Source: Ulota crispa (taxonomy: Eukaryota > Streptophyta > Bryopsida > Orthotrichales > Orthotrichaceae). From it: a stretch of DNA of 64,000 nt. The translations under genes and the position numbers were made by a program. Below, one piece after another: positions 736 to 63,931 of the stretch (the first letter of the stretch is position 1; each line of letters starts with the position of its first letter). The notes under the pieces are model-generated. The model was not told the origin of the DNA. It searched no databases and saw nothing but the letters and a program-made list of their open reading frames with translations. The DNA lies in the NCBI GenBank assembly GCA_963920765.1, contig OY987250.1, forward strand, positions 17,414,409 to 17,478,408, in the 5' to 3' direction.

Positions 736-1658
736 TTAACCCCTAAAGGGCCAAGCCCTTCTCTATGAAAAACACTGAAAACTGCCAATTTTGGGATGAA
801 AGGAATGGTAATTTTATTTTTTATTATTTGAAATCTAACCATAAGATCTTGCTCTAACATTATGAGGTACTTGGGAAAAAAGTGAGCTTATTCCAAATGA
901 AAAGGAGTGAGATATTTACATGTGAAGTGAAAAAAAAAGTTTTTTTTCATACTACCCAAAAATTTCAGAAGCCATTGACCACTCCTATATCAAAAAATTT
1001 GCTCTACGCAAAGTTGAGGTTTTTTTTTTCCCATGTAGAAGACCAAGTTAGGTATGTGTGGGAGAATTTTCAAATCATTTGGAGTTGTATAACACATGGG
1101 AAAAAATAGTAAGTAAAAAGAAGTACAGAATGAGTCAAAACACTAAATTGTTAAGAATTTAATTATTAAAATGAAAAATGCAAGTCCCAATGGTTATAAT
1201 GTTGTGATAAAAAATCTACATCCTTTGGTTTTATTTTTTTTCCAAAATAATGAAAATTGAGTAAAATAAAGGACTTTAAAGTTTATTTTAGAGTAGAGAA
1301 TCTAGAACTGCCAGCAAACAAAAACTTCTCATAACTTTCATCTTATTTATCAAAATTGAATGATTTAAAGCTCCCCATGTCTATATAAGTCTAAAGAACC
1401 TATTTCAGATTTTTATTATGAAAAAAATGAAATTTTTAAAGAAGTTTTTGGCTACCCAGGGAGCAGCATTTTCCAAATTTTCATGCGTAACTTCTTCAAT
1501 AAATGTTGGAATGAAGAAAAAATTACATTCCCACGTAGATTTTTGAATTCCTCACCTTCAATAAAAGTTTCAGAAAATCACGCAAAGTAGTTTAGCCAGA
1601 GGTACATGCTCAAAATTCCAATTGTCCCCCAAAGGGACAATGGTCCTTTAGGGGTTAA
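736..1658. mobile_element. TTAA element, subfamily A, copy 1 (piggyBac-like MITE)
   Basis: The element starts TTAACCCCTAAAGGGCC and ends TCCTTTAGGGGTTAA, so both termini are inverted copies flanked by intact TTAA. Inside the left end a perfect hairpin AAGGGC/GCCCTT has a CAA loop. Inside the right end AAAGGAC/GTCCCTTT pairs with one bulged base. The 923-bp body has no conserved reading frame. It is the same element as 43735-44660 and, in opposite orientation, 62361-63299; all three share a segment with CTTCTCATAACTTTCAT. Classification as piggyBac-like rests on the TTAA target and CCC start and is inference. Confidence 0.8.
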
Positions 1659-2604
1659 CGTTTAGAATAACAAATTTGAATGTATGTAATACATATTAGA
1701 AATTTGATAGCTTTTTGTGCAATATTTTGTTAAACTATATTATAGGGATTTTCTAATTCATTGTATTTTTTGTTAAATCCACCACATTGCACCATGTTTA
1801 GAAGTTTCATAAAGAAAAGAAAAAAGAAACAAATCATACTCAATGAATGATTGATGATTATGACAAACATACTTATTCTAGATAATGTACACTAAGTTAT
1901 AAAAATTCAACCAAGTAAAAAAAAGAAAAAAAAGGGAAGAATGGAGAATACTTGCCATCATCACAATCATCCAATAAATATAAAATTTTCCTTTCTTTTC
2001 TTTAAGAAATTGCAATGTGAAAAATTTAGCAAAAATTGTGGTGGATTTCGCAATTCCGATATTTTAACAGCAGTGAAGTGCAAAATGTGTTTGCACTTTT
2101 CACAAAATTATATCCTTTCGAGTATCCTTTGCAATTTAGACCAATTGTGTTGCAAAACAAAATCAAAGACTATCATTGGAAAAATCTGCATATTGGTATT
2201 ATTGGATTGACATTCAAATCAATGCCTTTCTTAAATTCACGTCCTAGTCCATTTGTCAAACAATTACTGTAGGATTAAAAAGACTCGGTCAAGCAGGATT
2301 GTAATTCATCAACTAAGCATTTTTTGTAAAATTGAGTATGTAATTAAAAAAACAAAAATATAATTTAGCAATAAGTGAAACCTTAACAAAGTTCCTAATG
2401 AGAAAGTTCTCTTTAACTTCCTACTACTAGCACTAATCTAAATAGTCTATCATTTATTTTTATTTACTTGTCAAATTGCTATCTTATTGATGGGTGGAGT
2501 TTTGTGAATCAAAATAATGATGATGATTATTATTAATATTATTATTATTTTCAAGTTCAACTTTAATTTTACCTTAAAAAACTGCACGTAATTGTATATT
2601 GGCC
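1659..2604. other. AT-rich intergenic DNA
   Basis: No gene or repeat boundary recognised. Short overlapping plus-strand frames near 1941-2272 look like chance, with low-complexity translation and no homology I recognise. Confidence 0.5.
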
Positions 2605-3490
2605 AAATGTCTTTATAATTGACTTACACTGACCACCAGAATTGTCTCAATGTTTGCTTAGACGTCAATTTCTTTTCAATATCTCCACTATAAATAAGTG
2701 GCACTTTATCCTCAGATTTTTTTGTGTGATCCTCGCAATCAGCATACCAAATTTTAGTTACTAAAAACCAAAATCCTATTTCTAATAAATTGTTTTGTGT
2801 CAAAATCAAGAAGGCTTATGAAAAAACATTGGTGATGAATTTTTGAGATTTGATTGCATGGGTATGTTGGAGACATCCATATGCACATCTTTGCTTCAAA
2901 CAAATATTTCCAAAAAAATTCTATAAAAATTCTATATATATATACATATATTTTTAAAATTTAGGCCAAATTTAATACACTTGATATTTCCTCATGGAAT
3001 CTATTTTTTGGGAAAATAACTCACATGTTATGATTGAGTTTTTATCTTTAAGCATGATGATATATTTATTTTGCCAAAAAATAGATTCCATGAAGAAAAT
3101 ATCAAGTGTACGAAATTTGGCCTAAATTTTAAATATATATGTATATATATATATATAGATTTTTTATAGAATTTTTTTGGAAATATTTGTTTGAAGCAAA
3201 GATGTGCATATGGATGTCTCCAACATACCCATGCAATCAAATATCAAAAATTCATCACCAATGTTTTTTGATAAACCTTCTTGATTTTGACACAAAACTA
3301 TTTACCAGAAATAGGATTTTGGTTTTTAGTAACTGAAATTTGGTATGCTTGATTGCGATTGCACAAGGATCACAAAAAAAAAATTTGAGGATAAAATGCC
3401 ACTTATTTATAGTGGAGATAATGAAAAAAACTTGACGCCTAAGCAAACATTGAGACAATTTTGGTAGTCACTGTAAATGTGCGCATATTT
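2605..3490. repeat. Long inverted repeat (0.9-kb hairpin)
   Basis: The left arm (about 2605-3017) is repeated in reverse complement as the right arm (about 3075-3490) around a short spacer near 3018-3074. Matching landmarks include ATGGATGTCTCCAACATACC on the right arm against GGTATGTTGGAGACATCCAT on the left, and CACTTATTTATAGTGGAGAT against ATCTCCACTATAAATAAGTG. The arms are close to identical, with scattered substitutions and small indels. A transcript crossing it would fold into a stem of more than 400 bp. It could be a foldback transposon or an inverted duplication; terminal target duplications are not clear. Confidence 0.85.
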
Positions 3491-5326
3491 GTCTTAACCC
3501 CTAAACACCTAAGGGGGTAAGGGCAAAACATAAATGCATTATAAAATAATACTTATGTAACTTTGATGAAGTTTGCTTCAAAGGAGAAAACAAGAATCAT
3601 GATGTTTAGTAATTATCCATATAGTCAAACATTCAAAAAAAGTTTGGGAGTTTTATTTAATGAATTTAGAAGCATTTACCATTTAATATTCATCAAAATT
3701 ACAAATTTAATTCATAGATTTTAAAATTGGTCATGATTTGTTAAAAATAAACATTCTATTGTAAACTTCAGAAATGAAATACTTTTAAAGGAGAGAACAT
3801 CACTAGTTTCCCAAAATAGAAATTTTTACAACACTAGCAAATATTGAAGTGTTTTTTGTAGAAAAATTCTCCTTGATGGAGTTTAACTTGGATTGACATG
3901 ATTCAAGTTGGGATGGAAAATAGAATTGATTTTCTTTTTGAAAAAAATTAATTTTTTTCAAATTTCTTTTTCATCTCAGGCAGCCCATAAAGAATGGGCA
4001 GCGACCAAAAAATGGTTGGTTGAGCGCTTAGAGTGAATAGTAGTCAATATGTTTGTGCAATCCGCTTTAATAAATAAACAATGCATGATCAAGAAATGAA
4101 TTTTTATTTAAACGTGTTTTCTTTCAATCACAATTAACCTTTCAATGGAAACAAAGATACTTACTTTTAAAAACGCAATCAATTATTATTGTTGCACTTT
4201 ATCGACAAACTTGCAATAAGCTTCAAAAGGACAATATAATGTGAAAAAAAACATCATTTAATTGTAGTTTTATAGTATTTAGTTTTAAATGGATTCTAAA
4301 TTGTAAGTACGAGAAAAAATATGCCTATTTGTATAAATGACTTGAACTCAGATTGTTTCTACACCAATGTAACTTTCTTTATTCTAAGCTTTTAAAAGTC
4401 TCTTCCAAATACTATTTAGCATGAGTTATCTAAACATATGGTCACCCTTTCATGTCTAGTGTTCTACACATATTCATATCAATGAGTACTTTTTGTATTC
4501 TTGATACACAAATAAAACAAAATAGTTAATAATGTCTCTTCTTCTTACTTTGATTATCTTATACACCACTCCACAAAGTTTGGCTCTTTTCACATTTATT
4601 TGTGGTAAAATTGGGAATTTGTTTTACATTCAACCTTAATATAGAAATCTCTTGTCTTTAAGTTAAATTTTGCCCACAAGCATTTTGTACTAAGTCATGT
4701 GTTGTGTTGCCCCAAATAAGAATAACATTTTTCTAGATGTATCACTTACTATTAAAAAAAATTCACATATTTTTAAACAAGGGTTGGAACATTTTTTTGT
4801 GAAGTGTGCATCTCTCCCACTAAGGTTTGTGAAGAACTAGCGGCTAGTTCAAAGCTAGCCAATTGAAACAAGAAAAAACTGTTTGCAATTTATAGGTTAA
4901 GAAACCCATTAAAATCCTATTTTTTATTATTATTGTATGAATTAGAGAAAAGAGCAAAAATAGTTCCTTGATAAACAGGTTCAATTCGGAAATTGTAGAA
5001 AATCAACCAAAAAAACTCAAATATTTCCCAAACCATGTCTTTCACTATTATAATGGAATCCATAACAACATAGTAATAATCAATAATCTAAAAGAGATTA
5101 TAGCACATAAAACAAAAATTGCCTAAAACTCTAGTACATACAACAATGCCAAATAAGGCAATCTCTTTAGAAAACAACCAAGTATAAAAAAAAGGGAACA
5201 ACAAAGAACTTAAGAATGTTCCACTATCACAAAACATGTTTTTTCCATTGTTGAAAACATGCTGATTAATTATTTTATACATATACAATACTTGAGTGCG
5301 TCCACCTATAAAAACAAGATCAATAA
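3491..5326. other. AT-rich intergenic DNA with one solo TTAA-element end
   Basis: At 3494 the sequence TTAACCCCTAAACACC matches the start of the TTAA family, but no right end follows, so this is probably a truncated or decayed copy. At 4834-4850 GAACTAGC-G-GCTAGTTC is a perfect palindrome with 8-bp arms. Nothing else is recognised, and the minus-strand frame at 5088-5336 has no supporting features. Confidence 0.5.
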
Positions 5327-5622
5327 GGTAGGACACCCATAAGCGTTATAGTGTCCGCATCTTTGTCACCTCTAAAATCTTGAAAAATCTATAGAAATAA
5401 ATAGATATAATTACAAGGATGTACAACATGTGAACATGAAACCTTAGCGTTGGTTATGGGTACAATGGCAGTTTGCTCTTTAAAAATTCACAACTTGTTC
5501 TCACAATATCCAAATAATACATTCAAAGGTGCAAACTCATTATTTTTTTGTTGCTAACATGATCTTATAATTTGCTACATGCATATTAATAGTCATCAAT
5601 AACGTTTATGGATGTTCCTACC
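5327..5622. mobile_element. Short inverted-repeat element M1, copy 1
   Basis: The termini GGTAGGACACCCATAAGCGT and AACGTTTATGGATGTTCCTACC are inverted repeats of about 22 bp enclosing a 296-bp non-coding body. A second copy lies at 42290-42588 in the opposite orientation with matching interior, for example the segment around TTGTACATCC and TTTTAGAGGTGAC. Presence in two copies with conserved ends marks it as a MITE. The superfamily is unassigned because no clear target duplication is visible. Confidence 0.75.
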
Positions 5623-5965
5623 TTATCACTTATTCACAAAGCACTAAATTATCTTAAGACAAACAATGCAACTCTAGTAATCTAGTGATCTCAAATGTGT
5701 TTTTTACAATGAACAAGATAAAAAAAAAAACATTGCTGCACATGCTAAAACTCCAACTTCAACATTACTTTTATTCACACATTTGTAGCTACAATCTTGG
5801 TTGGAGTCGTTTCTAAATTTACACACTTTTGTGATTATCGCGGTTTATCATACAAAAAGCATTAATTCTAAATTAACCTTTATTTAGCATATGTTTATAC
5901 AGGTGGCTAAAGTAGCCTACTTGCCCAACTGAACAATCTAGTACTAAATGTGCTTATGGTGTAAA
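5623..5965. other. AT-rich spacer
   Basis: Sequence between two short inverted-repeat elements. I see no gene, repeat end or regulatory motif that I can support. Confidence 0.5.
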
Positions 5966-6278
5966 GGTAGTGTGCTCGTAAACCGTTCATCTAAGGGCTG
6001 AAACTAAATTTTGGGAGGTGAAACTTTATGAAAAAATTTTTTGTAAGTTTTTCTTGAAAGACAAGAGGAATTGGCATCTATCTCAAATATTTTCATATTT
6101 TATGGAACTTTGCAAAATTAGTTATGAAACTTTGAAGTGGAAAGGTCATAGGTGCTCTAAAACCGCCCATCTCTCAAATATTCGTCCCATGTACATTGCT
6201 GAATAAGACATGTACCAAAAGAGTACATTGGGGGAGGTGAGCGGTTTTAGAGCATGAGCGGAATACGAGCAGAGTACC
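5966..6278. mobile_element. Short inverted-repeat element M2, copy 1, upstream of callose synthase
   Basis: The left end GGTAGTGTGCTCGTAAACC and the right end, which reads GGTACTCTGCTCGTATTCC in reverse complement, form an imperfect terminal inverted repeat. Inside, CTCTAAAACCGCCCATCTC (from 6154) pairs with GAGGTGAGCGGTTTTAGAG (ending 6253), giving a strong hairpin of about 100 bp next to the right end. A second copy, interrupted by another transposon, lies at 50588-51553. The element ends 938 bp before the callose synthase start codon and so sits in or just upstream of its promoter. Confidence 0.75.
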
Positions 6279-30409: not shown

Positions 30410-30471
<62 letters not shown>

Positions 30472-30612: not shown

Positions 30613-31250
30613 TTAACCCTTAAATGCCTAAGGCATTTTTTGGGCTTTTAGGAATTTTTTTCAAATTGAACGAAAAGGCGACATTTTAATAAGTTGTATT
30701 AAGTTATTTTGAATTGTAACCATACAAATTCAAACTAGATATGTTAGAGGTCACACAAGAAAAGAAAATACAAAAAACATCACTAATGGATTGAAAGATT
30801 ATAATATTTGATCATGAGGATGTTAAAACTACAGAAATGACTTGAAGCCTTTGAATCCTCTTTTCACATGCTGGATCTAAAAAACTGACCATCAAAAAAA
30901 TATAAGGTTAAATGAATTAACATACTTAACCCCAATCACTTTATAGAAGTTCAAAATCTTTTCTACAAATTTTTCAAATGAATTTTTTATGGAAATTTTT
31001 CTCCGAGATCTAGTGTATTTGAGGCTCATTTCCAAGAGCTCTCAACACTAAAGTCAAGACCCTTGTACAAAAGCTTGAATAAAAAACCCATAATTGATCA
31101 TTTTCAAAATTAGATTGCTAATCCTAAAATTAGAATTCACAAATTATAAATCCAAAATGCAAACTACTAAAAATAACAACTTAGTTAGGTTTATTGAACC
31201 TCAAAATATTGCAGACACCAAAATTTGGTGCTACATGCATTTAGGATTAA
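30613..31250. mobile_element. TTAA element, subfamily B, copy 1
   Basis: It starts TTAACCCTTAAATGCC; the right end reads GCATTTAGGATTAA, a slightly shortened version of the canonical GCATTTAGGGGTTAA. The left end contains a perfect hairpin AAATGCC/GGCATTT with a TAA loop. The 638-bp interior aligns along its length with 50616-51254, sharing TTGAAAGATTATAAT and CTCTAGTGTATTTGAG-like stretches. Its terminal TTAA (31247-31250) is also the first TTAA of the next element. Confidence 0.8.
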
Positions 31251-31678
31251 CCCCTGAAGGGCCCGAATGCCCTTTGTGGCCTTAATATGCTGTTTTGCTA
31301 GTATTCGGTGGATGTCGTGGCATTTTCAAGCTTTCTTGTACACTAGAGAGTTGTAGGCAATTCTGAGCGGCATCTGAGAGTGTTTTTGGATTTTGAAAAT
31401 ACATTGCCAAATTCCAATGCTTCCTTGAAGTATCCACTGTCCCCTACGGTCCACATATGGTATGTGTTTTTCTATGGCGTGCTTCCAGCAATTGATCTTT
31501 GGATTCACAAAGAGATAGGCCCATAAAAATTTGCAGTCCCTGTCAACACCTAAAGCTGCAATCTATGCAATTGGAAATCCAATTAGCAATCTAAACCACC
31601 AAAATTGATTTCTAGTATTCACAAACTCTACAAATATGGTCATGTATCAAAAAGGCCTGAGGGCCCTCTACGGGTTAA
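31247..31678. mobile_element. TTAA element, subfamily E
   Basis: It starts TTAACCCCTGAAGGGCCC and ends GGGCCCTCTACGGGTTAA. The left subterminal hairpin is AAGGGC/GCCCTT with loop CCGAAT; the right end holds the palindrome GAGGGCCCTC. The 432-bp non-coding body matches no other element in the window that I could see. It shares its left TTAA with the preceding subfamily B element. Confidence 0.75.
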
Positions 31679-32946: not shown

Positions 32947-35900
32947 TAATCTACATGTAATAATGATCAATTTTTTTATTTTTGTATCAAATGAACTAAA
33001 TCTCTTGAGAATTCTATGCTTAATGCCTTAAAATTTTCTAGAGGATCCTTCATTTGCGTTTTGAAATACCTATATACTTGTAGATCTTACTAAAAGAAAG
33101 ACACTCATAAATATTTGCATTTTTAGATTGTTTTAAAGGACAAAAAATCTTGAGACTTGTAGGATGGAAGGACATGATCCCAAAGCTTTGCAAATCTTCA
33201 CATGTTTTACAAATGTGACATACCAGCATCCCAATTTCAACTTGCAACTAGTCATCTATCAACAATGAAATGTTATGCTATAGCCTAAAGGATTCTAAGG
33301 AAGCAATTGCAATGCATTAATCCATAAAGCACTACCTTTGGCTTGCTTGGATTGCAATTGTCTCCTAACACCTAATATATGAGCTTTCATAGCTTATGAA
33401 GGCAATCTATGAACATTGCTAATACCTATTACAATGTCCTTATTATTGAATATGCATTTGAACAAAAAGATAATATCTCAAGAATAACATATTAAAAAAT
33501 CAAGAGGCTTGATTTTGTAAACGCATTGGATGTCATAGTTTTGGTGGATAATTTGTGCTTTTTACTTTGCAAGTGGAAATCTTGTTCAAATTAAATAAGG
33601 AAAATAAATCATTAGAAGGCAGATTTTGTAGGAAATAATATCCAAGATTGATGGATGTAAAATTTACATAGATTCAAATGAAGCAATATTTAGGAATCAA
33701 TATTCTGAGAAGATTTAATGCATTACATTGAAGTTTAAGCAAGGGTTCAATTATCAAATAAATTCTCTATTTGCTCGTATTTGTTTTATTGGCTTGATTA
33801 AAGCTAACTTTATCCTAAAAGCTAGCCCACACAACCTTTTACACTATCCCTTTGAAAGCAAAGCAATTCTTAATTGTCAATATGTTGAAAATTTCAGTCC
33901 TTGCAATTCTTGAACACTTTATATTATTGAATGTAACCCAAGCTACACCACGACTTTTGGACATTGAAAAGAAGTTGAAATTTTTTTATGTTAAGAAAGG
34001 AGTTGTAGGAATAGTCATAAAATCCATCTCAATTAACAACTCAAAATCAACATCAACCACATTTTGACGCATCTATCCATGAAGATTCAAGATTCTTTTT
34101 AGGAGGGTTGAAATTGATTAGTACATACAAATTTGTCTGAATACCTTGACAGGTGTACTTTGTCTTTAGGAGAAGAATCTTTAGTCCAAGTTGGTAGAAA
34201 ATCAAAGTAAACGAAAGGAAAGGGATTGTAATGGATGTAGACACAAACACTATATAAATTCAAGTTTCTTCTACATTACATTTATAGAACTACAATCATA
34301 CCTTTATAAATTGATAAATTCCTTATATTTCTTATGAATGTATTACTACTTAAGTTTTTTTAATAGATTATTTTATTTGATGAAAAGATTACTAAATTCC
34401 ATCTCACATTCCTTTTAGTTTCAAGAAGAGTCAGCATGAATCATGGTCTTTTTGAGCAACGATGTTCACAAAGATTAATTCTATTCATTTAGTACAAAAT
34501 TATGCCCTAATTTCAATAGTTTATCATTGCTTGTCAACCAAGCACCACTCATATCTACTTTGCATAACAAAATTTCGGTAACAACAAATTAGAAATGTAA
34601 CTACGGTGGATATGAGTTTAGGGTACAATTGAGATATTGGGCAACCAGGACAAAGACAATTGCAAATTAGGGATTTAGGGTAGACTAGCATTCCTCCTTG
34701 GATGCTCTCTCCCCTTATCACTTGTTGCTAAGGTATGTACACCCATATCCAAGCGTTTAAGGGTTTAGGGTAGTGCAAAGTCTCAAAAAATTCAGGAAAA
34801 AAATCTGTAGGGTTAGCCTTCCAACAAGCTATCACATAGCTTCATTTTTGTGAGAAAAAATATTGTACAATATATTATATCAAAGGGCAAAATTACAACT
34901 CATGGGACTCTAAAAACAACTGTAAACTAACCTTAAAACTGCTTAGATGTGTCCTATAATGGCACTTGACAATCCCAATCTCAGCCCTCCTAAACCAACT
35001 TAGCAACCAACATGTGACAGAATTTGCTTGTGCAAGTAGTGTTCAAGGCTCCACTTTGGGTTCAAGGTGAACGCAGTGCGCTATTGGGAGCTGCTCGGAT
35101 TTGGGTGTACCTACTTTAGCCTCCTTCCTGGTCATTGAATTCCTGCGTCTCCCGACTCCCGCTCTTGTGCCTGTTGTGCGTCTCACGCACTTCTCACATA
35201 AAAAGAGCTTTTTGAAGGATCAAAGATAGACTTCAATGGAATTAATGTACTGTACTTTATGTCAATGCACGCGTGCACAAGACGAATACAGAACATCAGG
35301 CTTCAAAGGTCCGGTACAGCGACAGGCAGAATAATGTAGATACACCACAGTGAAAATTTTGAATATTTAGCAGACTTGGGAATACTTTTTACCCCCTAAA
35401 GTTATGTGAAAGTCACATTTCGATCCCAGGTGGGAAAAAAAGGCTAATGCTTTAAAATCACTCCTCCAACACACTGAGCCGTTACGAAAGCAATGGCACT
35501 GGGTCACTGGCGAGTTCGATACTCCAATAATTAAGATAACCAACAAGGGTGGTTGCTAATTGATGCAGCCATAACTGAAAATCTTTGCAGATAACTATAA
35601 ATCTCTTCACAAAGCATAAAAAAGAAACTCCTAAACCGCAAGTGTACGAGCTCGTTAAGCAAAAGCCCCAACAACTTCTACACTAATGGTATGTCCACTG
35701 GTGTCCATAAAAATCAAGATCGACAACAAACTTGTACAATATCCATAAGAGGAAAAAAATCGTATGCACTTTTTCATTTTGGCCACCTACATTGAGTGAC
35801 GAAAGTCTTGAGGACTCTAAATAAATTTACCGAAAGTAAGAACTACTGCAGCTCCAGGTTAACAACACTACACTAAAGTGGTCCCAAAATATCTCACAAA

Positions 35901-42588: not shown

Positions 42589-42592
42589 ATAC

Positions 42593-42738: not shown

Positions 42739-43001
42739 TACCAAACTCGTCCGGCAGAGGCACACTCTTGGATGACACATGATTACATGGAAATGTTTCT
42801 ATTGGGCAAAACACATAACAGGGTGCCAATTTCCGTGTCTTGGCCGGTTGCTAGTTTGAACCGTGCCTAATACTCCCTCTGTACCTCTAAAACGTCCAAA
42901 TCAAACATGTTTCTTGTACAATACCACTAAAAAGCTTGTTTTTTTGTTGATTTCAAACGCTCAAAAAGCATTTGCCATGTTCAATGATCTCATGGGATAA
43001 C

Positions 43002-43738
43002 TAAACCCCTCAAGGTCCAAACAGCTTTTTTTGAGTTGTGTAGTGACTTTGGGCAGGTCACTACAAATGGATTTCTCATTTGTTTTTTATTTTATTTTCA
43101 CACATGAAGTACCCAAGGAGTAGCTTTAAGGCCCAACAATTTTCGTAACTTTGAACTACATGGTTCAAAAGTTATTGCATGAATTGTTGTTTTCTTTGCT
43201 CATCAAGGCAGCCTTGGCAGCTCAAAAACTTCTTTAAAAATTACATTTCAAAATTGGGTTTTTAAAAATTGGTTCTTTAGATCTATATATAGATGGGAAG
43301 CTTTGAATCATTCAATTTCCACTAATGAGATGAAAGTTATGAGAAGTTTTAGTTTGCGGGTAGGTATGGAGTCTACATACCCACAAACTAAAACTTCTCA
43401 TAACTTTCATCTCATTAGTGGAAATTGAATGATTCAAAGCTTCCCATCTATATATAGATCTAAAGAACCAATTTTTAAAAACCCAATTTTGAAATGTAAT
43501 TTTTAAAGAAGTTTTTAAGCTGCCCGGGCTGCCCAAACGAGCAAAGAAAACAACAATTCATGCAATAACTTTTGAACCATGTAATCCAAAGTTACGAAAA
43601 TTGTTGGGCCTTAAAGCTACTCCTTGGGTACTTCATGTGTGAAAATAAAATAAAAAACAAATGAGAAATCCATTTGTAGTGACCTGCCCAAAGTCACTAC
43701 ACAACTTAAAAAACGTTGCCTGGGCCTTGAGGGGTTAA
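43002..43738. mobile_element. TTAA element H: full-length hairpin derivative of subfamily A
   Basis: The termini are TAAACCCCTCAAGG (left, TTAA mutated) and CCTTGAGGGGTTAA (right). The whole 737 bp is one near-perfect inverted repeat with arms of about 365 bp meeting near 43369-43373. Part of the arm (CTTCTCATAACTTTCAT through the AGATCTAAAGAACC segment) matches the interior of subfamily A elements, so it looks like a snap-back derivative of that subfamily. A transcript would form a long double-stranded RNA. Its right TTAA is the left TTAA of the next element. Confidence 0.85.
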
Positions 43739-44660
43739 CCCTTGAAGAACCATGGTCTTTATTTTGTGAAAAGACACTCAAAACTGCCACCTCTATGGCA
43801 AAGAGTAAAAAAGTTTGAAGATCAGGCATTTTGCATATTTGACCATAGGATCTTGTGCTAGACTACTATAAAAATGTGTCATACAAAACTCAAGAACTTT
43901 GACGGCATAGATTGGAAGATATTTGCATTTAAAAAGTTAAAAACAATTTTTTTTGCACCTTGCTTGACTAGATTTTTTAACTTTGAAAATTTTTAACTTA
44001 AAAATTTTGCACTATAGAGTTTGGAATTCTATTTTTGCATGGTGGGAAGTTGAGTTGGGAATCTTGGGAAAAAAATTCAAAAAAGAATACTTAATTTTCA
44101 TTCTTTAAAAAAATATCAGGTAGAAGAAGGTATGAGATTGAACAAAAACTTAAATTGCTAATAACCCTGCAATGGGATTGAAATGCAATAATCTCAATGG
44201 TGAGATTGTTCTAGAAAGCAAACTTCACCCTCTCCAACAACTTTTTTTTGAAAAAATGTTAAACCTGCATTCAAAAATGAAGTTTATAAGTTATTTTTTC
44301 AAGAAGATGCTTGAGTTGCCTGAAAAACAAGATTATCCATAACTTTCTCATAACTAGTCCAAATGGAATGAATCAAAGCTTTAGATGTAGATAAAGATAT
44401 AATCTAAAAGGAAAAAATTAAATTTTTTTTCAAGTTTTTATAAGAATTTTTTTGCTGCCCCTAGTCCCCAAATTTGTGCTTATTTGGGCATGACTTTTGC
44501 TCCCTGGCATCAATTGGAATAAAATTAGATTCCCCAAAAGCTAATATGTTTTTCTATCTTCAAAAAAAGTTTCATAAAATTAGGACAAAATTTAAGGCCG
44601 TAGGTACCTGCTCAAAATCCCATTTGTCCCCCGTAGGGACAATGGTCCTTTAGGGGTTAA
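43735..44660. mobile_element. TTAA element, subfamily A, copy 2
   Basis: It starts TTAACCCTTGAAGAACCATG and ends GGTCCTTTAGGGGTTAA; length 926 bp. It aligns with 736-1658. The right end carries GGAC/GTCC around CATT and, further in, TTGTCCC facing GGGACAA. The left end carries a bulged AAGAACC/GGTCTT stem. No reading frame. It shares the TTAA at 43735-43738 with the hairpin element on its left. Confidence 0.8.
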
Positions 44661-44958
44661 GCAATTAGAGAGCATTCTTCTCCTAGCAAGCTTAGCCTTG
44701 CCTATATGAGGTACCGTTGCTACTATTAATCTTTACATCATCAATAATGAGGAGCTGGCAGTATGCACAAATATGGTATTTTTTGCATGGAATTTGAGTG
44801 CCAAAACGGCAACATCAAAGCTGGAGATTTTGCATACATTTTGGTAGATGGTATATTGATCGGCTAGAATGCATGTTTCACTAGCACAAAGAGTAAAAAC
44901 ACAATTAATCCTTTGCAAGGAAACTTTTTGGATATTTTTTGGAGGTATAGAGGGAGTA

Positions 44959-45455: not shown

Positions 45456-45770
45456 ATGCACCCCATGCACCCATGCCCCCTCATGCATGCCCCCTCATGC
45501 ACGCCCCCCATGCCATCTTCCATGCACGCAATCCTCCATGCACACCATCCCTATGACATCCCATCCCCCCATGCCCCCTCATGCATGCCCCCCATGCCAT
45601 CTTCCATGCACGCCATCCTCCATGCACACCATCCCTATGACATCCCATCCCCCCATGGCATCCCCAAGCCTCTAATCCCAACCCCAATCCTAGCCCCAAT
45701 CCTAGCCCCAATCCTAGCCCCAATCCTGACCCCAATCCCAACCTCGATCCCTCAAACCCAATCCTAATTC
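45456..45770. repeat. C-rich tandem repeat tract
   Basis: Strand-asymmetric C-rich DNA in an AT-rich setting. First come short CATGC and CCCC units. Then a unit of about 95 bp is present twice (about 45480-45574 and 45575-45660), each containing CCATGCCATCTTCCATGC and CCATCCCTATGACATCC. Last come about four 12-bp units of CCCCAATCCTAG (about 45678-45730). On the minus strand this gives regularly spaced GGGG runs that could form G-quadruplexes. Open frames here come from the repeat and are not genes. Confidence 0.85.
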
Positions 45771-46550: not shown

Positions 46551-46553
46551 GAT

Positions 46554-46715
46554 CACTAGAAGAAAAACAGCAATAAACAATTAAGTAATTGAGTTGTTGT
46601 GCAATTATTGTGACCATATGTGACCATATAACAATTATGAAATGACTACATATGGTCACAATAATTGCACAACAACTAAATTATCTAGTTGTTTATTGCC
46701 ATTTTTCTTCTAGTG
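46554..46715. mobile_element. CACTA-ended hairpin MITE with GAT duplication
   Basis: CACTAGAAGAAAAAC at the left pairs with the right end TTTTTCTTCTAGTG. The pairing continues inward through GCACAACAACT/AGTTGTTGTGC and TGTGACCATATG/CATATGGTCACA, so nearly all 162 bp form a hairpin. GAT at 46551-46553 and 46716-46718 is the 3-bp target duplication expected for the CACTA superfamily. Non-autonomous. Confidence 0.88.
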
Positions 46716-46722
46716 GATGGAC

Positions 46723-47392
46723 TTAACCCCTGAGCACCCCAGATGATAGAATGTGGCCTCTCCCAATCTTGAAATTTTGAATTTTGGCTTGGTCAAGGTT
46801 CAACTGCTTTTTGTTTATGAACAAAGTACAAGAGGGAGTCATGAAGTGACAGAAGGAAGTTGGCAATTTGTTAATTGGGGAGGTATGTAATAGTAGTCAC
46901 CATTTTTCTACAAATTAGATCCTGGTTTTTTGATGTTCTAGCAATTTGGGGTCAAGTACAAATCGTACATAGTTTGGTAAGCATTCACCTCCTGCAAGCA
47001 CTCTACAAACTTTGGAGCTGTCATGTGAGTTCATTTTTACGTAAAAAAATCTGCAAATTTGTGAGTCCCTCACCACGCATGTCACCTCCCTCCTTTGAAA
47101 ATTTCGTGGAAATTGGATAGTTTCTCGAGCCGCTCTAAATTTTCTAAGTGCCGGATCCAATTGCTCCGGGTGTTTTTTCTTGGAGTCAACACCAATTTGA
47201 CCGTTATAAATTCCAAAACCGCACGGTGAAACCTTCCCAAAAATTTCAAGAAGCTGGCTACACTAAGTATCTCCCACTTTGAACAGTCACCTGACTTTGA
47301 TCCTCTTGCTGCATTTTTGGTAAAACCTCAAGTGGCACCATGTCCATTTTGACCGTCTTTCGCGGTTCGAGCGCTGGGCGCTCAGGGGTTAA
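46723..47392. mobile_element. TTAA element, subfamily D, copy 1
   Basis: It starts TTAACCCCTGAGCACC and ends GCGCTCAGGGGTTAA; length 670 bp with both TTAA intact. Read inward, the right end has a perfect hairpin GAGCGC/GCGCTC with loop CCA. It lies only 4 bp beyond the duplication of the CACTA MITE. The interior has no reading frame and is less AT-rich than the flanks in its last 300 bp. Confidence 0.8.
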
Positions 47393-48769: not shown

Positions 48770-49739
48770 CTATAGCTGCCAAAGGCGGGGCCATGTCCAT
48801 GCTTTCCTTTGCGAAGGAGGCAATACGAGTGATTTAAGCATTCTATGTTCGGCTGGGGTGAGCGGAATCCCTTCCAACAAAGCGTCTGCCATCCTTCCCA
48901 CATCCCGCTGCTTTGCCCTTCCCCGATAAAACGTCACTCCTGCTATCGCTCCGATCACTGCCACCTGACTCATTCCAACCATCCTACTTTAATTATGCAG
49001 TAGAGGATACTATTTGCGTCACTTTAACACATGTAGAACCTTATTATTTGAAAGAAGTACATAGCAGTTGAGAAACCTTTGAGCACAAGCACCAAACCTA
49101 CTGAAATCTAAATGCATACTTACGCAATTTCAGAGTAAGAGGTTGTTGACCACAAGAAGTGACAGTAGACAACCTCATTCCCATTCAAGGATCCGTGGCA
49201 AGTCTTGCTTATTGGAGGCCAACCAAGCGTATGTACAGATGAGTACTAAAAGCAGAATAGATCACATCAGGTCCTTGATAAAATTACTATTAAAATGACA
49301 ACAGAGGCCTGAAATCAAAGATGCAAATTTCTCCATGTCAAAGACAGTCAGGCTCAACTTACCGGGCCTAACCAAAGAATCGCCGTTTGAGCATCAAAAG
49401 CTGGAGAGTAGAGAATCGATTCACCGTACTCAGTAGTAAGCATGTGATAAATCTCCTTGTCGCTACGGCCTGCTCGTATATCGTCTCGAATGACCTGCAT
49501 AACAACAGGAGCAAGAATTCAGCAATTAAAGCGCAAGAGATAAGTGAGTAAGAAGAAAGTTGGATATGAGATGAAAGAAAAACCTTGCGAAGTCGGACGG
49601 CAATATCGGCAGCCGATTCCTCGATGGACTGGTGGCCGCACTCGAGGCAACGCACGTTGTGAGAGATGTGACGAGCTCGGGCTTCGACCTGCGCAGTTCG
49701 GACGCGATCTTCCACGGAACTGGACTCGCCATCCGCCAT
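48770..49739 (-). CDS. CCMH: Cytochrome c-type biogenesis protein CCMH (mitochondrial)
   Basis: Component of the system I cytochrome c maturation pathway in the mitochondrial inner membrane. It keeps the apocytochrome CXXCH cysteines reduced for haem ligation, working with CcmF-type subunits. Coding exons: 49739-49584, 49494-49363 and 48964-48770, joined in phase 0 into 160 residues, the expected size for plant CCMH. The conserved redox motif RCxxC is present as RCLEC (residues 30-34), within HNVRCLECGHQSIEES. The middle exon reads IRDDIRAGRSDKEIYHMLTT and YGESILYSPAFDAQTAILWL. A membrane segment begins near residue 90 and runs through VAVIGAIAGVTFY (97-109). The tail LTPAEHRMLKSLVLPPS is typical. 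The ATG at 49739 fits the family start. No cleavable presequence is evident, as in other plant CCMH. Confidence 0.93.
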
Positions 49740-50588: not shown

Positions 50589-51553
50589 GTAGTATGCTCA
50601 TAAACCGTCCAGGCATTAACCCCTAAATGCACCTATCGGAGCTTCTTGGAATTTCCATGAAACTAAACAATCAATCAACCCTATCATAAATTTCATCAAG
50701 TTTTTTCAACTATAACAATACAAATTTAAACCAAACATGTTAGAGATTACATGGGAAGAGAAAACACATCAAATTCACTTATAGTTTGAAAGATTATAAT
50801 GTTTGAACATGAGGGTGTTAAAATTGCAGAAGTGACTTGAAGTCTTCCAATCCTCATTTCACATGCCAAATCTAAAAATTTGGTCAACAAAAAAATATGA
50901 GGTTTAAGGTCATTACATGTCTAACTTTAATCAATTTATGGCTTTCAAAATCTACTCTTATATTTGTTTAAATGGATTTCTAATGTGGATTTTTCTCCAA
51001 GCTCTAGTGTATTTGAGACTCATTTTCAAGATCTTCCAACACAAAAAAACTCAAGATTACAATGAACACCCTTGTACAAAATCTTGAGTAGAAAAACCAT
51101 CAACATTCATTTTCAAAATCAAATTTTTGATGTTGAAAATAGACTTCAAAACAAACTTATATTGAAAAAAATAAAATACAAATTGTGACTCAATAAGGTT
51201 TTATTCATCTTCAAAGTTTTGTAAAGACCCAAATCTGGTCGCTTGGGCATTTAGTCTCTAAAACCACCCACCTTCTCAAATGTTCCCTTGTTGTACATGC
51301 TTTTTTTCATATGTTTTCAAGATGTACAAGAATTGTACACTTGAGGAGGTGGGCAGTTTTAGAGACCTATGGCCTTTCCACTTCAAAATTTCATACCTAA
51401 TTCCACAAAGTTCCAAAAAATATGAGATAACTTGGGATAGATATCAATTCTTTTTGTTTTTCAAGGAAAATTTACTGAAAAATAGTTCAAGAAGTTTCAC
51501 CTCCCCAAAATTTAGTTTCAATCCTTAGATGGATGGTTTATGAGCACACTACC
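50588..51553. mobile_element. Short inverted-repeat element M2, copy 2, interrupted by a TTAA element
   Basis: The ends GGTAGTATGCTCATAAACC and GGTTTATGAGCACACTACC are near-perfect inverted repeats. After removing the TTAA element at 50616-51254 the rest aligns, in reverse complement, with 5966-6278. Shared landmarks are CTCTAAAACCACCCACC facing GGTGGGCAGTTTTAGAG, and CCCCAAAATTTAGTTTCA. The element lies 849 bp upstream of the CCMH start codon, with its internal hairpin on the gene-proximal side, as in the copy upstream of the callose synthase. Confidence 0.78.
50616..51254. mobile_element. TTAA element, subfamily B, copy 2 (right end truncated)
   Basis: It starts TTAACCCCTAAATGCACC and aligns with 30613-31250 across its length. 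The right end stops at GGGCATTTAG, so the last few bases GGGTTAA are missing. It is inserted inside element M2 copy 2. No reading frame. Confidence 0.72.
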
Positions 51554-51829
51554 TTAGCGTTTATCCTTTTCATGGTATGAATTTGCCACGTGTTTGTCCA
51601 AATACTGAAAACTTTGGATGAATTTTTCTTACTTCTAATGAAAGAGTAATGGAAAATACATTGTTATAAATAATAGAATACAACATTTTCTATACATATA
51701 TAGAAGAATACAACCAAAAATAGAATACACAACCAAAAATGGAGATTGGTTGAGAGAGTGTCATGGTGCAACTTCCAATTACATGTTTATCCTTTTACAA
51801 AGGAGAAAGGGGTACATGCATGAAGTGGC

Positions 51830-52060
51830 TTAATCCTTGAACGACCCGAAGGTCTTTCTTGGCCGTATGTATGAGTTTAATACATATCAATTATGATCAC
51901 ATAATGCTTCAATCTCTACTGTGAAACCCTTAATTATCAACCACAATCACACAATGCTTCAATCTCTGATGTTGTTTTGCACTTCTTGAAATTTGGTGAA
52001 AACAATATTTGACTGATACAACCCCGTATCTCCAGAGCCCTAGGGCCTTTCAGGGGTTAA
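51830..52060. mobile_element. TTAA element, subfamily F
   Basis: It starts TTAATCCTTGAACGACC and ends CCTTTCAGGGGTTAA; 231 bp. The left end has a GACC/GGTC hairpin with loop CGAA, the right end GCCC/GGGC around TA. The interior contains an imperfect direct repeat, each unit with ATAATGCTTCAATCTCT or ACAATGCTTCAATCTCT, spaced about 55 bp apart. Confidence 0.7.
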
Positions 52061-54149: not shown

Positions 54150-54399
54150 TTAACCCCTGAGCGTCCAGCTCAAAATCCGGTTTAGACAGACCTCCTTGCA
54201 ATCAAAGTGCCCCTATGAACTGAAAAATACAATCTACAATATTGAAACCATACAAATTGTTAGTAGGAATCATCTCCATCGTGATGGGCTTGATTGGAGG
54301 TGGTTTCATCAAAGAAGCAATGAGATTACCTCACTCAAACTTGTGTTGATCCAATTTTTGTAAAGACATTATAATGTCTCATGGGCGCTCACGGGTTAA
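54150..54399. mobile_element. TTAA element, subfamily D, copy 2
   Basis: It starts TTAACCCCTGAGCGTCC and ends GGGCGCTCACGGGTTAA; 250 bp. The left end has a TGAGC/GCTCA hairpin with a 5-base loop. Near the right end GACATTATAATGTC is a perfect 14-bp palindrome. The right TTAA (54396-54399) is shared with the next element. Confidence 0.75.
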
Positions 54400-54644
54400 C
54401 CCTTGAGCGCCCCAGTGACCACTATGTGGTCGCTCAAATTTGAAAGATGTTTATATTTGACTCTTATCCTCTTCTTAATGGTAAAGTCAAAGGACTTTTA
54501 CTTTTTCAAATACCTCCAGACATGTGTCTACTACCATTCAAAAAAAATTCAAGCTATTTGACTCTAATTAGATATTACTTTTATTAAACTAAGTACACAA
54601 GGGTATAAATTTGAGTGAATAAGGCCTAGGTGCTCAGGGGTTAA
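54396..54644. mobile_element. TTAA element, subfamily D, copy 3
   Basis: It starts TTAACCCTTGAGCGCCCC and ends GGTGCTCAGGGGTTAA; 249 bp. The left end holds GACCAC/GTGGTC with loop TAT, enclosed by GAGCG and CGCTC. It adjoins copy 2 head to tail through one shared TTAA. No reading frame. Confidence 0.75.
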
Positions 54645-55135: not shown

Positions 55136-56040
55136 TTATCCCCTAAATGCCTGAGGGTACTTTTCTTGGTTGAGGAAGGTATTTTGCAAGTTTTTGAACT
55201 GTAGTCATACACTTATTATGAAATATTGATAAAAAAATATAATTGTAGGATCTTGAACCTCAAGGTTTCTGCATGATATTAACAAAAATGATCTAAAAAA
55301 GGCATGCAAATGTTAAGATACTTGTGATTGAATGTGAATGAGTTCATTTTATTTTGTTTTTTTATCCACCCAAAATTTGTTGTGAAAAATGGTAACTTTT
55401 GTATACATAATTGGAAACAACCACATATAGTGATTTTGTATTTGTTGTTGTTACTTCAAAAATAATGGCTCTCCTTCCAAATTCATGACCATTATTTCAT
55501 AAATGAGCTTGCAATGCAACTATCAAAGAGCTACCACTTCATGTAAAGAATTTTTTTTAACTCTAATTTTTGACCAAATTCATTGTGAAGGAAAGAGAAT
55601 TCAATGACAAATGAATCATACTTTGAATAATAAAAAAATTCTAAGTGAAACTAGCACAAAAAAAAAAATCAGATTTTTGTTAAATGATGAAATTTCAATG
55701 GAAGGGCCCTCGCTGCCTAAAGGAGAGCCCAAGGGAAAATTTGACTTTATGCTCAACTTGTTGCTTGTTTTTCCATTATGACATCTTGTCATAGGCTCTT
55801 TAGTGACACTATTCATAACACTACTTGGTGTGCAACAAGCATGCTTGCACTTTTGCTTCCACCAAAAACATTTGAAATGTAATATGGAAGATATTTGAAT
55901 TGGACATTAAACCTAATTTAATTTAGAGTGCAACTTCTCCAAAAAAGTAAAATTAAAAAAAGATTAAAACCTAAATTATCAACAAGGTTTTAAAGTTCCC
56001 TGAACACCCAAATTTGGTGCCTCAAGCATTTAGGGGTGAA
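55136..56040. mobile_element. TTAA element, subfamily B, copy 3 (decayed ends)
   Basis: It starts TTATCCCCTAAATGCC and ends AAGCATTTAGGGGTGAA, so both TTAA sites have mutated by one base and the copy looks old. The right end matches copies 1 and 2 (CCAAATTTGGTGCC before GCATTTAG). At 905 bp it is longer than the other B copies, so the interior is probably rearranged or carries unrelated sequence. The minus-strand frame at 55616-55816 inside it is not conserved in the other copies. Confidence 0.65.
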
Positions 56041-58733: not shown

Positions 58734-59403
58734 ATAATGTTAAACTTTGTAACTTAGAAGTTAAATGATGAGAGTTGAGAGTCTAACCGATGACCACGTT
58801 CATTTTTATGTTCTTGCCATCCTTGTTGTAAATATGAAGGTTGTACATCATCTTCATTTTCATTTATTTTCAACTCGTTTAAATCGGTACAAAACGATTC
58901 GCTCTAAACCATAAACCCAAAAACAAGTAATGAATTTAGTGAAAATAAAATAAAGTAATTTAAGATTGATTGATGTCAATAAATAAATGAATTCGTGTGT
59001 GTTTGAACAACCTTGTTTAAAATCTTTTATCACTATAGTAGCACAAGTTTCATTTTTGTATTATTATGTATTAAACCATATTTTTTATGCATTAGTGAGC
59101 TTCAAATGAATTGAATAGAACAAAGTACAGAGTATTGTACACATGTTATAATTAACAAATTATGATATGCTTATGTAATTGTGGACTATTCATAATATTA
59201 AGAGATCTTTCCATGTTTAAACAAAATATTGGGAAGATCACTTGACATTTTGCATATATCTTCAAACTTTTCTTTTTGAATTGTTTTGTATGATATTTGA
59301 ATAGTCCACAACAATGTTTGAGAAGAAAGTTTGACTTCAACAGTTGAAGTCTAGCATTTTTCATTTCAAGTGGTTTTCATTGGAATGTACCAATTACTTT
59401 CTA
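58734..59403. other. AT-rich intergenic DNA
   Basis: Nothing recognised between the two elements. Confidence 0.5.
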
Positions 59404-59985
59404 CTCCCTCTGTCCCAATACAAAGCTCCAAATTAGGCATAGTCCTTGTCCCACTAAAAAGCTCCTTTTTGCTAATTTCAATCGCTGAGAAAGCGTTTGT
59501 CATGTCCAATCATCTCATGGGGGCAAGTTAAGCAATTAAAGAGCATTCCTCTCCTAACAAGCTTGGCCTTGCCTATATGAGGTACCATTGTTGGTACTAA
59601 TCTTTAAATGATCAATCATGAGGAGCTAGCCACATGTACAAATATGGTACTTTTTGCATGGAATTTGGGTGCCCAAACGGCAACATCAAAGCTGGAGATT
59701 TTGCACACATTTGATACATGGTATATTGATTCTAGAATGCATGTGTCATTAGTTCAAAGATTAAAATAATGAGGAGCCAGCAGCCTTCACAAACTATGCA
59801 CAATTATGGTACTTTTTGCATGGAATTTGGATGTCTAAATGGCAATATAAAAACTTGAGATTTTGCAAATATTTGGTAGGTGGTATATTGATTCTAGAAT
59901 GCATTTGTCACTAGCATAATGACTAAAAATACAATTAATCCCTCATGGAGAAGTTTTTTGGAGCTTTATAATGGGACAAAGGGAG
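59404..59985. mobile_element. Stowaway/mariner-like element, uninterrupted copy
   Basis: It starts CTCCCTCTGTCCC and ends GGGACAAAGGGAG, flanked by TA (59402-59403 and 59986-59987), the duplication of Tc1/mariner and Stowaway elements. At 582 bp it is longer than typical Stowaway copies because a stretch of about 170 bp is tandemly duplicated inside; TGGTACTTTTTGCATGGAAT occurs in both halves. It aligns with the split copy at 42873-44956 and preserves the empty TTAA site at 59528-59531. Confidence 0.85.
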
Positions 59986-60129
59986 TATATTTGTACCACA
60001 ATATACTATATTTTAGTTTTTTGGTAAAATTTGATGAAATTTTTAGTGTTATTTCAAATTTAACTGGTTTTTTTTGCAATTTGAAGACAACATACTAGAT
60101 GTTGGTTCTCCTTGGACATGAGTCCACAA

Positions 60130-63100
60130 TTAATTAAATACATTGTAAATCTTTAAAAGAACTTTTATTATCTAAATCCAATGGATAATGCATTAGTGCA
60201 ATTATAAAACTTAGAAAATAAATAAAAACTCACATCACTTGTTTGTGAACAACTTGGAGTGCTTCTTTGTGCAACTCCTCCTCTAATAACGTTGCAATTA
60301 CCTTCATAAAACTCAGCATTAGATCCATCATGGTCGTTGCATTCTTGGATGGTACATGCAGGTCGTACTACTCTTTCCGGTGGAAGACATGATCGACCTT
60401 GCAAAGGTGTCCAAGATGCAGGATATCTTCGAGGAAGATGAGAATTTGTCAATAAACTGTTGCTTCTATAGTGATTGATTGTTGATCCAATATGAGGAGA
60501 ATGGTTATTATGGTCATAATTTTCATTGTATTCACAACAAGAACTATCATCACTATAACGAGTTTTGAAGTTGTTTATTGCTTCATGTTGTATACAACTA
60601 CAAGATGTACAATCGCTTCTTGTTGAATTACAACAATCTTTGTTAACACGTGGATAGTCGCATTGTGCACATTCACTTCTTATATGCCGACAACGATCTC
60701 TTCCATTACGCAATTGGATCTCGTTATGATGAAATGCTTTGGAATCACCAATGCTATCATGGTTAATATCACGTTGTTGGTTAGACTTTTTTCGCTTACC
60801 ATCTTGGCTTACAACTTGTTTAAGTTTATGATATTTTGGATAGCTTAATCTTTTATTATTGTGTTTTTCTTTATAATCAATTTCAGATTCGCTACTTGTA
60901 TTGCAATTTAATGTATCATATTGTTTTTGTTTCAAAGCTTTTTTTGGATTATGAAAACCTTCATTTTCAGAACTTGAAGATGATTCATTTTTTTGTTTCT
61001 TGTCTTTAGAATGGCATGAAGTTTTTATTTTTTTCTTTAATTCTGAAAATTTTGGGAATTTTGGGAATTTTGGTGTGCTTCTAGCATACGGCTGATATTT
61101 ATTCATTGTTTGAGAGTTATTCATGTTTTTGCCGCTGCAACCTAAAAGTCAAAGAAAAGACATTGGTGCTAAGCAATGCATATAGTTTTTGGTAATAAAA
61201 AGTGCACATTTGATTGAAGTTTGGAGTTTGAAAGATACTGGAAAATATTATATAATCATACTTGTATAGTTACCAATTTAAGTTTAATCAATTTTTATGA
61301 TTTTAACACTACTTTAAAAAAAAAAATCTTATGAAAAAATACCTCCATTCTCAATGAACAATTGGACTATTCCTCCTCCTCCACTTTTGTCACATAAAGT
61401 ATTATCATGCGGTACTGGTAACCGAACATGACGATGCTCATCAATGTTTTCATATCTTGGTTCATAGGCCAATGCTTGTCTTGGCTCATACTTTGGTTCA
61501 TATCTTGGCTCAAATTTTGGTTGTGGCTGTATTTTCACTATTTTACACTTTAGGAAAATCAATATCAACTTTTTATCCTAAAATATGTGATTTATTATAT
61601 TAAAAAAATCAAACTTGTTTACATGTATTTTTATTCTTTCTAAAATCAGCAATTTATAAATAAAATAAGGATTCTTTTTGAGTGCAACTTCAAAATTAAA
61701 ACCTAACATACAAAAACAAAAAAAACTGTTGCTTTTTATGAAATTAAAAAAATTGCAAAAATCATGTAAGCATTTAAATGCTAAAGTATTGTAAGAAGTT
61801 CAAATATTTTCCTAGCTTTGTTTTGGCTTTCATTGTCCTACGGAATATATCTAAAAGAACAATATTTGAACTCAAAAAGCAGTTGCATCCTATAACACTC
61901 AAACTAATCATCAAAATTATACTAAAAAAACGTAAGAAAGGAAAAAAAAATCAACTAATTTCTTGTTGAGTGTTGTGTGTCTTTTCAAAAAAATCATGAT
62001 TGACATACAAGTACCAGTAATTGTAAAAGGATTGAATCACAATCTCTTAGGCCAAGTTCTACCTTTATTTATTTTTAGTTTTCAATCAAATAAACCATAA
62101 CGCTTATAAATAAAAGAGATGAAATATATAAAATTTTCAAACTATTATTTTTACACATATTTTTTTACCTTTACATCTCTCGGTTTGTAACCTCCAAATG
62201 TTCAATTCAATTAAAAATTATAATCTTTTGCTTTGCAAAGGCAAATTTTATAGAAGAATATGATATGTTATATTAAATTGTCAATGGTGTGCGTAATTTA
62301 AAGATAAAAGAAAGACCGCAAGATGTAATAAAAAGAATCCGTATTTTTTTAATATATATTTTAGCCCCTAAAGGACCATTGTCCCTACGGGGGACAAATG
62401 GGATTTTGGGCATGTACCTATGGCTAAACTACTTTGCGTAATTTTTTGAAACTTTTTTTGAAGATGAGGAATTCAAAAATCTGCATGGGCATCTAAATTT
62501 TCCTTCATTTTGACAATTATTGAAGAAGTTATGCATGAATTTTTGAAAACATGCAAGATTGGGCAACCAATTTTTTTGTTTAAATTATTTTTTTTCAAAA
62601 TAAAAATCTGAAATTGGTTCTTCAGATTTATATATATGTGGGGAGCTTTGAATCATTCAATTTGGATTTATGAGTGAAAAGTATTAGTTTGCGGGCAGGT
62701 ACGGGACTCCCATAATTACTTTCTTTTGCCTTTGGTACTTTACTTTTTTGTGTTCTTTGTGAATTTGTTTTTTGACTTCTTTTTTTTCCAAGTTGTAGTA
62801 GACTAAGATACCTTGTTTTTCACCATTTGGATCAACATTATTCATATTCTCAATTTTCCATAAATCCTCCAATTTTTGCCTACTGTATTTGCAAACTTCA
62901 TGGCCTTACAGCATTGCAAGATTTTACAAAGTATGATTCACACCTCCAATTCATTTGAAAATTCTCCCACACTTACCTAACTTGGTTTTCTACATGGAAA
63001 AAATAAACCTCAACTTTGCGTAGAGCAATTTTTTTGATTTAGGGGCAATCAAAGGCTTCTGAAATTTTTGGGCAGCAGGGGAAAAAGCTTTTTTTTTCAC

Positions 63101-63931
63101 TTCAAATGTCAATATCTCACTACTCTACATCTAGAATGAGCTGATTTTTTTCCCACAAGTACCTCCCATAGTCTAGAGAAACATCTTACGGTTGGATTTC
63201 CATAAAAAAAAAATTTTCCTACCTTTCTACTCATTCCCCCAAAAGTGGCAGTTTTCAATGATTTTCACAAAAAAAAGGGCTTGGTCCTTTAGGGGTTAAA
63301 GCTCTTATATCTCCAATGATTGAATTGTTTGAAAACTTGATCTATATACTGATGCAAGCATTCCAAAAAGAAGAAGATTTCAAATACTCAACTTTAGGAA
63401 GTAAAGTTGAAACTAGAGTTAAACAAATGTTGGTTTTTGAATAAATTTGTTGCATGAAAGTAAATATGCTATAATAGTGAATCTCAATACAACTTTATCA
63501 CTAGCATGACCTCTCAAATGTTATGTAAAATATCAATATGGAATGAATTACTAAAAGCATTGCTTTGGCTTCCAATATTTAGATATTTATGATCCAATTT
63601 TGAGTACCTCTTTTATTCTGTAATACCTCCTAGGATCAATTGCATGTTTCATATTGTAGCCTTTTTTATAACGCTTTTTTTCTTTGTGATCATCATCAGA
63701 TTCTGAATGATCATCCATACTAAAATGACTTTGATATCTTTTTGAAGACTGAAATTTTCTAGTTGGTTTTTTATGATGAACTTTGGATTTTGGACCATCT
63801 ACATCTTCTTCACATTCATCCTCTTCCAAAGCTTCATCACAATTTTCAATGTCCACGTTGTCATGATAATAGTATTCATTGTCATCATGATAATAGGGAT
63901 ATCTATCATATTCCTCTTCGTCTGCTCCCAT
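60130..63931 (-). CDS. Putative gene for an unrecognised low-complexity protein (partial or tentative ends)
   Basis: Function unknown. Three long open stretches join in frame at good splice sites: 63931-63608, 61526-61343 and 61141-60234 (1,416 nt, 472 codons). The second junction uses the acceptor in TTTGACTTTTAG and the third exon ends at a strong GTGAGT donor. A short last exon at 60171-60130 is possible but weak. Exon 1 is acidic and rich in Tyr, His and Asp, then basic. Exon 2 carries repeated YEPR-like units (FEPRYEPKYEPR). Exon 3 is Ser/Lys-rich, then has a Cys-rich part (CCNSTRSDCTSCSC). Coding sequence is much more AT-rich than the other three genes. The codon before the first ATG is TAG, so this is either the true start or an AG acceptor with the gene continuing beyond the window. 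A disordered lineage-specific protein or a repeat-encoded relic are both possible. Confidence 0.5.
62361..63299. mobile_element. TTAA element, subfamily A, copy 3, in an intron of the putative gene
   Basis: The left end TTAGCCCCTAAAGGACC (TTAA mutated in one base) and the right end GGTCCTTTAGGGGTTAA bound 939 bp that align in reverse orientation with 736-1658 and 43735-44660. The left end shows GGAC/GTCC around CATT, then TTGTCCC facing GGGGACAA. It lies between exons 1 and 2 of the putative gene at 60.1-63.9 kb. No conserved reading frame. Confidence 0.8.

Follow-up and report, generated by a model that had tools for sequence, protein, structure and literature searches.

A cluster of short TTAA-flanked, CCC-ended elements, probably of piggyBac type, in a plant nuclear genome window

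A CC or CCC (YY) start, inverted repeats mostly shorter than 25 bp, and a seamless excision that restores the TTAA target are features of piggyBac transposons, a family best known from animals. Human MER75 and MER85 show the non-autonomous form of this pattern: they duplicate TTAA, carry short inverted repeats that start with CCC, span a few hundred base pairs, and are non-coding. Both are classed as piggyBac (PMC5753468). The CCC start is not universal, as many piggyBac elements of bees start with CAC, and long terminal inverted repeats are known for some of them (PMC10140906). For plants, a 2008 survey limited those described to five other superfamilies (PMC2528002), whereas a 2023 review counts PiggyBac among the seven MITE superfamilies of angiosperms (PMC10004981) and a table for a fern genome includes a PiggyBac entry (1,230; 122,417 bases; PMC6890710). 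The bee paper also mentions piggyBac in plants in passing (PMC10140906). We found no piggyBac transposons of moss in the titles and abstract starts of the matches listed by a literature search, which had subscription papers outside its range. One moss genome paper (PMC10619864) was considered and set aside, its word being 'piggybacking' rather than a transposon name. An earlier reading of this DNA, made from the sequence only, had considered such elements rare in land plants. This agrees with the lack of a moss report in our search, but it is too broad for land plants as a whole given the angiosperm MITEs and the fern entry in these sources.

Here we describe a window (the whole stretch of DNA analysed, 64 kb) of nuclear-type plant DNA with 36% G+C. 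Judging from its sequence, the elements collected in Table 1 are likely to be mostly old non-autonomous members of the piggyBac superfamily, MITE-like and 231–939 bp long, belonging to several loosely connected families in a moss nuclear genome. That the host is a plant, as had been proposed, is supported by its genes. A 96-residue piece of CcmH (two exons joined) gave twenty-eight hits. The best were from Physcomitrium patens at 89% identity, the one organism named among the hits, and the host is therefore most likely a moss other than this species. Pfam matches at E 0.05 or better among 149 ORFs included nine to glucan (callose) synthase, three to DUF707, and the one to CcmH. The small element C1 is flanked by a weak FKS1_dom1 match (11654–11998, under the curated threshold) and by exons of glucan synthase (from 21203 on), and is therefore probably within a callose synthase intron. 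Scanning the window for Rfam families and for tRNAs gave no matches. The longest frame listed (60168–61148, minus strand, 326 residues from stop to stop) had no Pfam match at E 1.

Table 1. Positions in the window of the TTAA-flanked elements, of isolated or doubtful ends, and of neighbouring features.
Feature	Positions	Strand	Length (bp)	Description
A1	736..1658	+	923	Intact TTAACCC/GGGTTAA on both sides; family with 43735 and 62361
A2	43735..44660	+	926	Left TTAA common with element D
A3	62361..63299	-	939	Copy of A1, inverted; one end TTAG (start of 62361)
B1	30613..31250	+	638	Mutated right end (known by alignment); TTAA common with J
B2	50616..51257	+		Left end intact, right decayed; end approximate; 71–73% to B1
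C1	13696..13929	+	234	
C2	29776..30012	+		Right end present, left decayed; start approximate; 75.6% to C1
D	43002..43738	.	737	Foldback; TAAA at the left end; related to family A in its interior
E	46723..47392	+	670	TGAGCRCC end subtype
F	51830..52060	+	231	
G	54150..54399	+	250	Right TTAA common with H
H	54396..54644	+	249	
I	55136..56040	+	905	Target copies mutated, TTAT/TTCA
J	31247..31678	+	432	Left TTAA common with B1
Orphan end TTAACCCCTAAACACCT	3494..3510	+		Left end; search of 2.5 kb gave no right partner
Doubtful degraded larger element	33317..34767	+	1451	Weak ends on both sides
CcmH gene, first two exons	49363..49739	-		Pfam PF03918, E 5.7e-9
Stowaway-like MITE, uninterrupted copy with empty site	59404..59985	+		Single TTAA at 59528-59531
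Stowaway-like MITE, second copy	42873..44956	+		Broken at the matching point by D and A2 in tandem

The exact word TTAACCC occurs thirteen times in each orientation and forms nine facing pairs 150–1000 bp apart. In thirty first-order Markov simulations the means were 3.9 forward words, 3.57 reverse words, and 0.23 pairs, with never more than one pair, and in the reversed sequence the counts were 5, 4, and one pair, respectively. Searching with TTAACCCCTRAA at up to two mismatches gave twelve pairs against a simulated mean of 0.73 (maximum 3) and three in the reversed sequence. The contrast is weaker for the loosest pattern (TTAACCCC, up to one mismatch), where fifteen pairs stand against a mean of 5.63, single simulations reached eleven, and the reversed sequence gave eight.

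The sequence-only reading had listed fourteen elements, of which twelve are two-ended (one of these ends is known by alignment only). The remaining two each lack an end. A start had been placed at 29754, which reads GTAACCC; homology with 13696–13929 begins inside that point, so this start was abandoned in favour of a decayed left end near 29776. The right end of the same element at 30012 is present as claimed, whereas no right end can be recognised for the element at 50616, whose homology with B1 halts near 51254 where another repeat starts. That repeat (51256–51555) has a second copy at 5964–6252, with 78% identity between them. The fourteen elements cover 8001 bp as a union, matching the earlier figure of about 8 kb, which is 12.5% of the window at a density of about one element per 4.6 kb.

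These weak or wrong ends (the left at 29754, the right of 50616, the right of 30613, and those at 55136/56040), together with the showing of the loosest pattern in simulation, are what one would cite in favour of chance, that is, of unrelated TTAACCC words paired by eye. The excess of exact facing pairs, the related copies that end at TTAA, and the presence of an empty site (below) count against this explanation, and we find it scarcely credible.

From the twenty-four ends of the two-ended elements we derived the consensus TTAA-CCCCTRAAGGNCC, with TTAACCCCTRAAGGNCC as its search form. TTAA is exact in 20/24 ends and TTAACCC in 18/24; the bases following TTAA are CCC in 22/24 and TCC in 2/24. 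The six bases outside the ends carry 0.05–0.34 bits each across the same twenty-four. The inverted repeats are short, with about thirteen conserved bases after TTAA, the exception being element D. Because the ends were partly found by the pattern itself, we compared the boundaries of the family A copies with each other: in six comparisons, 17–24 of 24 bases agreed inside the TTAA versus 3–11 of 20 outside. The end pairs, the consensus, and these boundaries uphold the earlier description: the elements are non-autonomous, target TTAA, and carry CCC at their ends. Neither viral nor genome contigs matched the 24-letter end patterns, in a collection from which records near the window's own genome were possibly left out.

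We also scanned the window with an end profile trained on the twelve two-ended elements and compared the scores with twenty simulations. The orphan end at 3494 scored 22.0, above the best scores of the simulations (average 13.6, highest 20.0, n=20). A foldback with long arms lies just to the left of this TTAACCCC end (2627–3473; self-match 2624–3476, 88.5%). It has CACTG/CAGTG ends beside TA, in which we see a presumed resemblance to Tc1/mariner. For the pair at 33317–34767 the scores were 10.8 and 14.9, which lie inside the range of the simulations or close to it, and the pair may be due to chance. Neither the orphan end nor this pair was in the earlier list. The right end of B1 at 31250 reads GGATTAA and falls outside the twenty-four best reverse ends of the scan; it fits the right end of the element at 55136–56040 over 31 nt at 87%.

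The target is most directly visible where D and A2 interrupt a repeat. We call this repeat Stowaway-like; it has TA flanks and CTCCCTCTGTCCC ends. Positions 42871–42996 and 44656–44898 of the filled copy match 59402–59521 and 59527–59766 of the uninterrupted one. At the junction of the empty site there is one TTAA, and the left copy at the filled site reads TAAA (one site only). A second TTAA lies 8 bases beyond the first and is uninvolved. No other single observation speaks as strongly for the putative insertion into TTAA as this empty site. The uninterrupted copy also contains an internal tandem duplication (59634–59766 and 59796–59928, 83%).

A duplication of TA inside TTAA would yield an identical empty site, and the filled sequence would be the same as well. 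The elements could then be mariner-type MITEs that insert at TA, have the ends ACCCCT...AGGGGT, and prefer TTAA, with the outer T and A reflecting preference and not duplication. Consistent with this, Stowaway-like repeats with TA flanks are present in the window, and one of the 149 ORFs has a weak match (E 0.02) to the helix-turn-helix of a Tc3-type transposase. However, this match was found in none of the rescanned ORFs that overlap elements, and the ends of the Stowaway-like repeats are quite different from those of the elements. The outermost T is constant in 24/24 ends, which is stricter than a preference would be, bearing in mind that the ends were partly chosen by pattern. A mariner-type origin is in our view unlikely, and we continue with insertion into TTAA by a piggyBac-type enzyme as the preferred reading.

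Other superfamilies were considered from their target duplications. The PIF/Harbinger (Tourist) duplication is a 3-bp TTA or TAA (PMC10004981), and TTAACCC/GGGTTAA cannot be divided into an equal 3-bp copy with matching inverted repeats, so this superfamily was rejected. We also rejected hAT and Mutator, which make longer duplications: outside the ends of the twelve two-ended elements there was no direct duplication longer than TTAA, and the mean identity of the 2–10 outside bases was 0.17–0.38 (chance is about 0.27). Sola3 does duplicate TTAA, and the elements might be non-autonomous members of a Sola-type group; their ends read CCCCTRAAGG, however, and a CCC start is a piggyBac feature, so that we rate this origin as quite unlikely. 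A table for a fern genome has a Sola entry of 2,739, and the group has thus been annotated in land plants (PMC6890710). Kolobok is described as sharing the TTAA duplication, with termini of the form 5'-RR...YY-3' (PMC9587614). Non-autonomous Kolobok elements are very unlikely here because their ends are purines, while those of our elements are CCC...GGG. The sequence-only reading had taken TTAA plus CCC as the piggyBac signature; this was over-stated, in that Kolobok and the TA-inserting mariners had gone unweighed, even if the purine ends described for Kolobok (PMC9587614) make that alternative improbable.

We searched the window for coding traces of a piggyBac transposase, the enzyme with the PF13843 (DDE_Tnp_1_7) domain. 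Pfam found none in the 149 ORFs (at least 71 residues), nor any relic in the six frames of the nine longest of the fourteen elements (54 frames). A profile of 120 piggyBac proteins gave a best E of 0.31 against the six-frame window, without a relic; the best reversed-sequence E was 6.5, and a positive control with the profile's own member gave 3.6e-263. With the same proteins, the best tblastn match (E 0.061, 28842–28994) lay outside the elements. Thus, for piggyBac, the earlier statement that there is no transposase in the window agrees with these searches. The proteins were the best 120 of 980 matches to the T. ni piggyBac transposase, and all of the organisms named among them are insects. 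The protein search is therefore silent about plants, and a profile of such insect-type proteins would miss very divergent transposases.

The elements fall into families to differing degrees. Family A consists of the elements at 736, 43735, and 62361, family B of those at 30613 and 50616, and family C of those at 13696 and about 29776. A3 aligns to A1 in blastn blocks of 80.8 and 81.7% and at 73% over the full length with laxer scoring. A2 is strongly similar to both at its ends and 59–61% identical over the full length (lax scoring). Laxer comparison also tied D to family A through interior sequence and the element at 55136 to family B through its ends. E and H have a 67-nt end in common, and J and F are weakly alike over a 38-nt end (E 0.009). 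The claim of at least five unrelated interior groups had therefore to be relaxed: there are several families, and the groups are not all unrelated. Identity within families is 72.7–87.9% in aligned blocks (differences of about 12–27%) and 59–73% over the full length of family A with lax scoring. Given this low identity, most copies appear to be old.

Element D differs from the rest in its arms, which are 363 nt long and 95% complementary, and its probable origin is an A-like element that was duplicated in inverted orientation. The fold predicted for its RNA is an almost perfect hairpin (-582.7 kcal/mol, z -59). A transcript of the element would be a 737-nt hairpin of this kind and a possible source of small RNAs.

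In three places two elements abut and have a single TTAA between them (31247–31250, 43735–43738, and 54396–54399). In simulations that scattered fifteen elements randomly over 415 free TTAA sites (the 440 of the window minus 25), the expected number of such pairs was 0.49, and the probability of at least three was 0.009. The element at 50616 occurs without J, and those at 736 and 62361 occur without D. These partner-free relatives indicate that B1/J and D/A2 are separate elements and not halves of one; this evidence covers two of the three pairs, with 54150/54396 standing outside it.

The window contains further repeats. A small foldback MITE with CACTAGAAGAAAAA ends, which we take to be CACTA-like, adjoins element E on the left (46554–46715). 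An inverted repeat pair at 5324–5598 and 42331–42591 is 80% identical, and a C-rich minisatellite at 45472–45766 has periods of 84, 41, 12, and others.

If the elements are of piggyBac type, a transposase encoded elsewhere would bind their common ends, cut them out, and paste them into TTAA, the target being duplicated on insertion. The enzyme would be a piggyBac-type transposase, and it or its close relatives may have moved several sub-families with slightly different ends. What can be seen in the window itself is that the ends agree, that one paralogous site without an insertion has a single TTAA, that there is no longer duplication, that related copies form several families, and that transposase coding is not detectable. 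The putative piggyBac assignment is made from two features, the target and the ends. Beyond the CCC, these ends are presumably unlike the terminus of T. ni piggyBac. Repbase likewise classifies non-autonomous elements largely by target and end features, and according to its description an element joins a class if its target site duplication has equal length and its first eleven bases align, with one mismatch allowed, to those of a classified member (PMC4455052).

We regard the families as new examples of an already known type; for their host group our literature search listed no report. Within the window they look ordinary, being mostly old and non-coding. One tentative possibility, which we do not favour strongly, is that mosses have or had a piggyBac transposase lineage of their own, and that this lineage was behind a wide radiation of non-autonomous families. 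Common plant repeat annotation is not known to look for piggyBac. Should a noticeable share of moss genomes consist of piggyBac elements, a superfamily may be escaping plant repeat annotation, and its source would be an ancient lineage within plants or else a horizontal transfer out of another kingdom.

The known systems resemble these elements to different extents. Stowaway MITEs, of mariner type, are also short plant elements with inverted repeats; they have TA flanks and CTCCCT ends, and their look-alike in this window is the host of an insertion. Compared by description, the non-autonomous piggyBac elements of animals (MER75 and MER85) have the same TTAA, CCC ends, size, and lack of coding capacity as those reported here. 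They differ in that our elements are in a plant, most likely a moss, have the end consensus CCCCTRAAGGNCC, and are without a known source element. Kolobok elements are alike in the TTAA duplication and unlike in their described 5'-RR ends (PMC9587614), which are CCC here. The PiggyBac-class MITEs that the 2023 review describes in angiosperms (PMC10004981) are similar as plant MITEs assigned by target site duplication and terminal inverted repeats, and in this comparison, made by description alone, they differ in coming from flowering plants.
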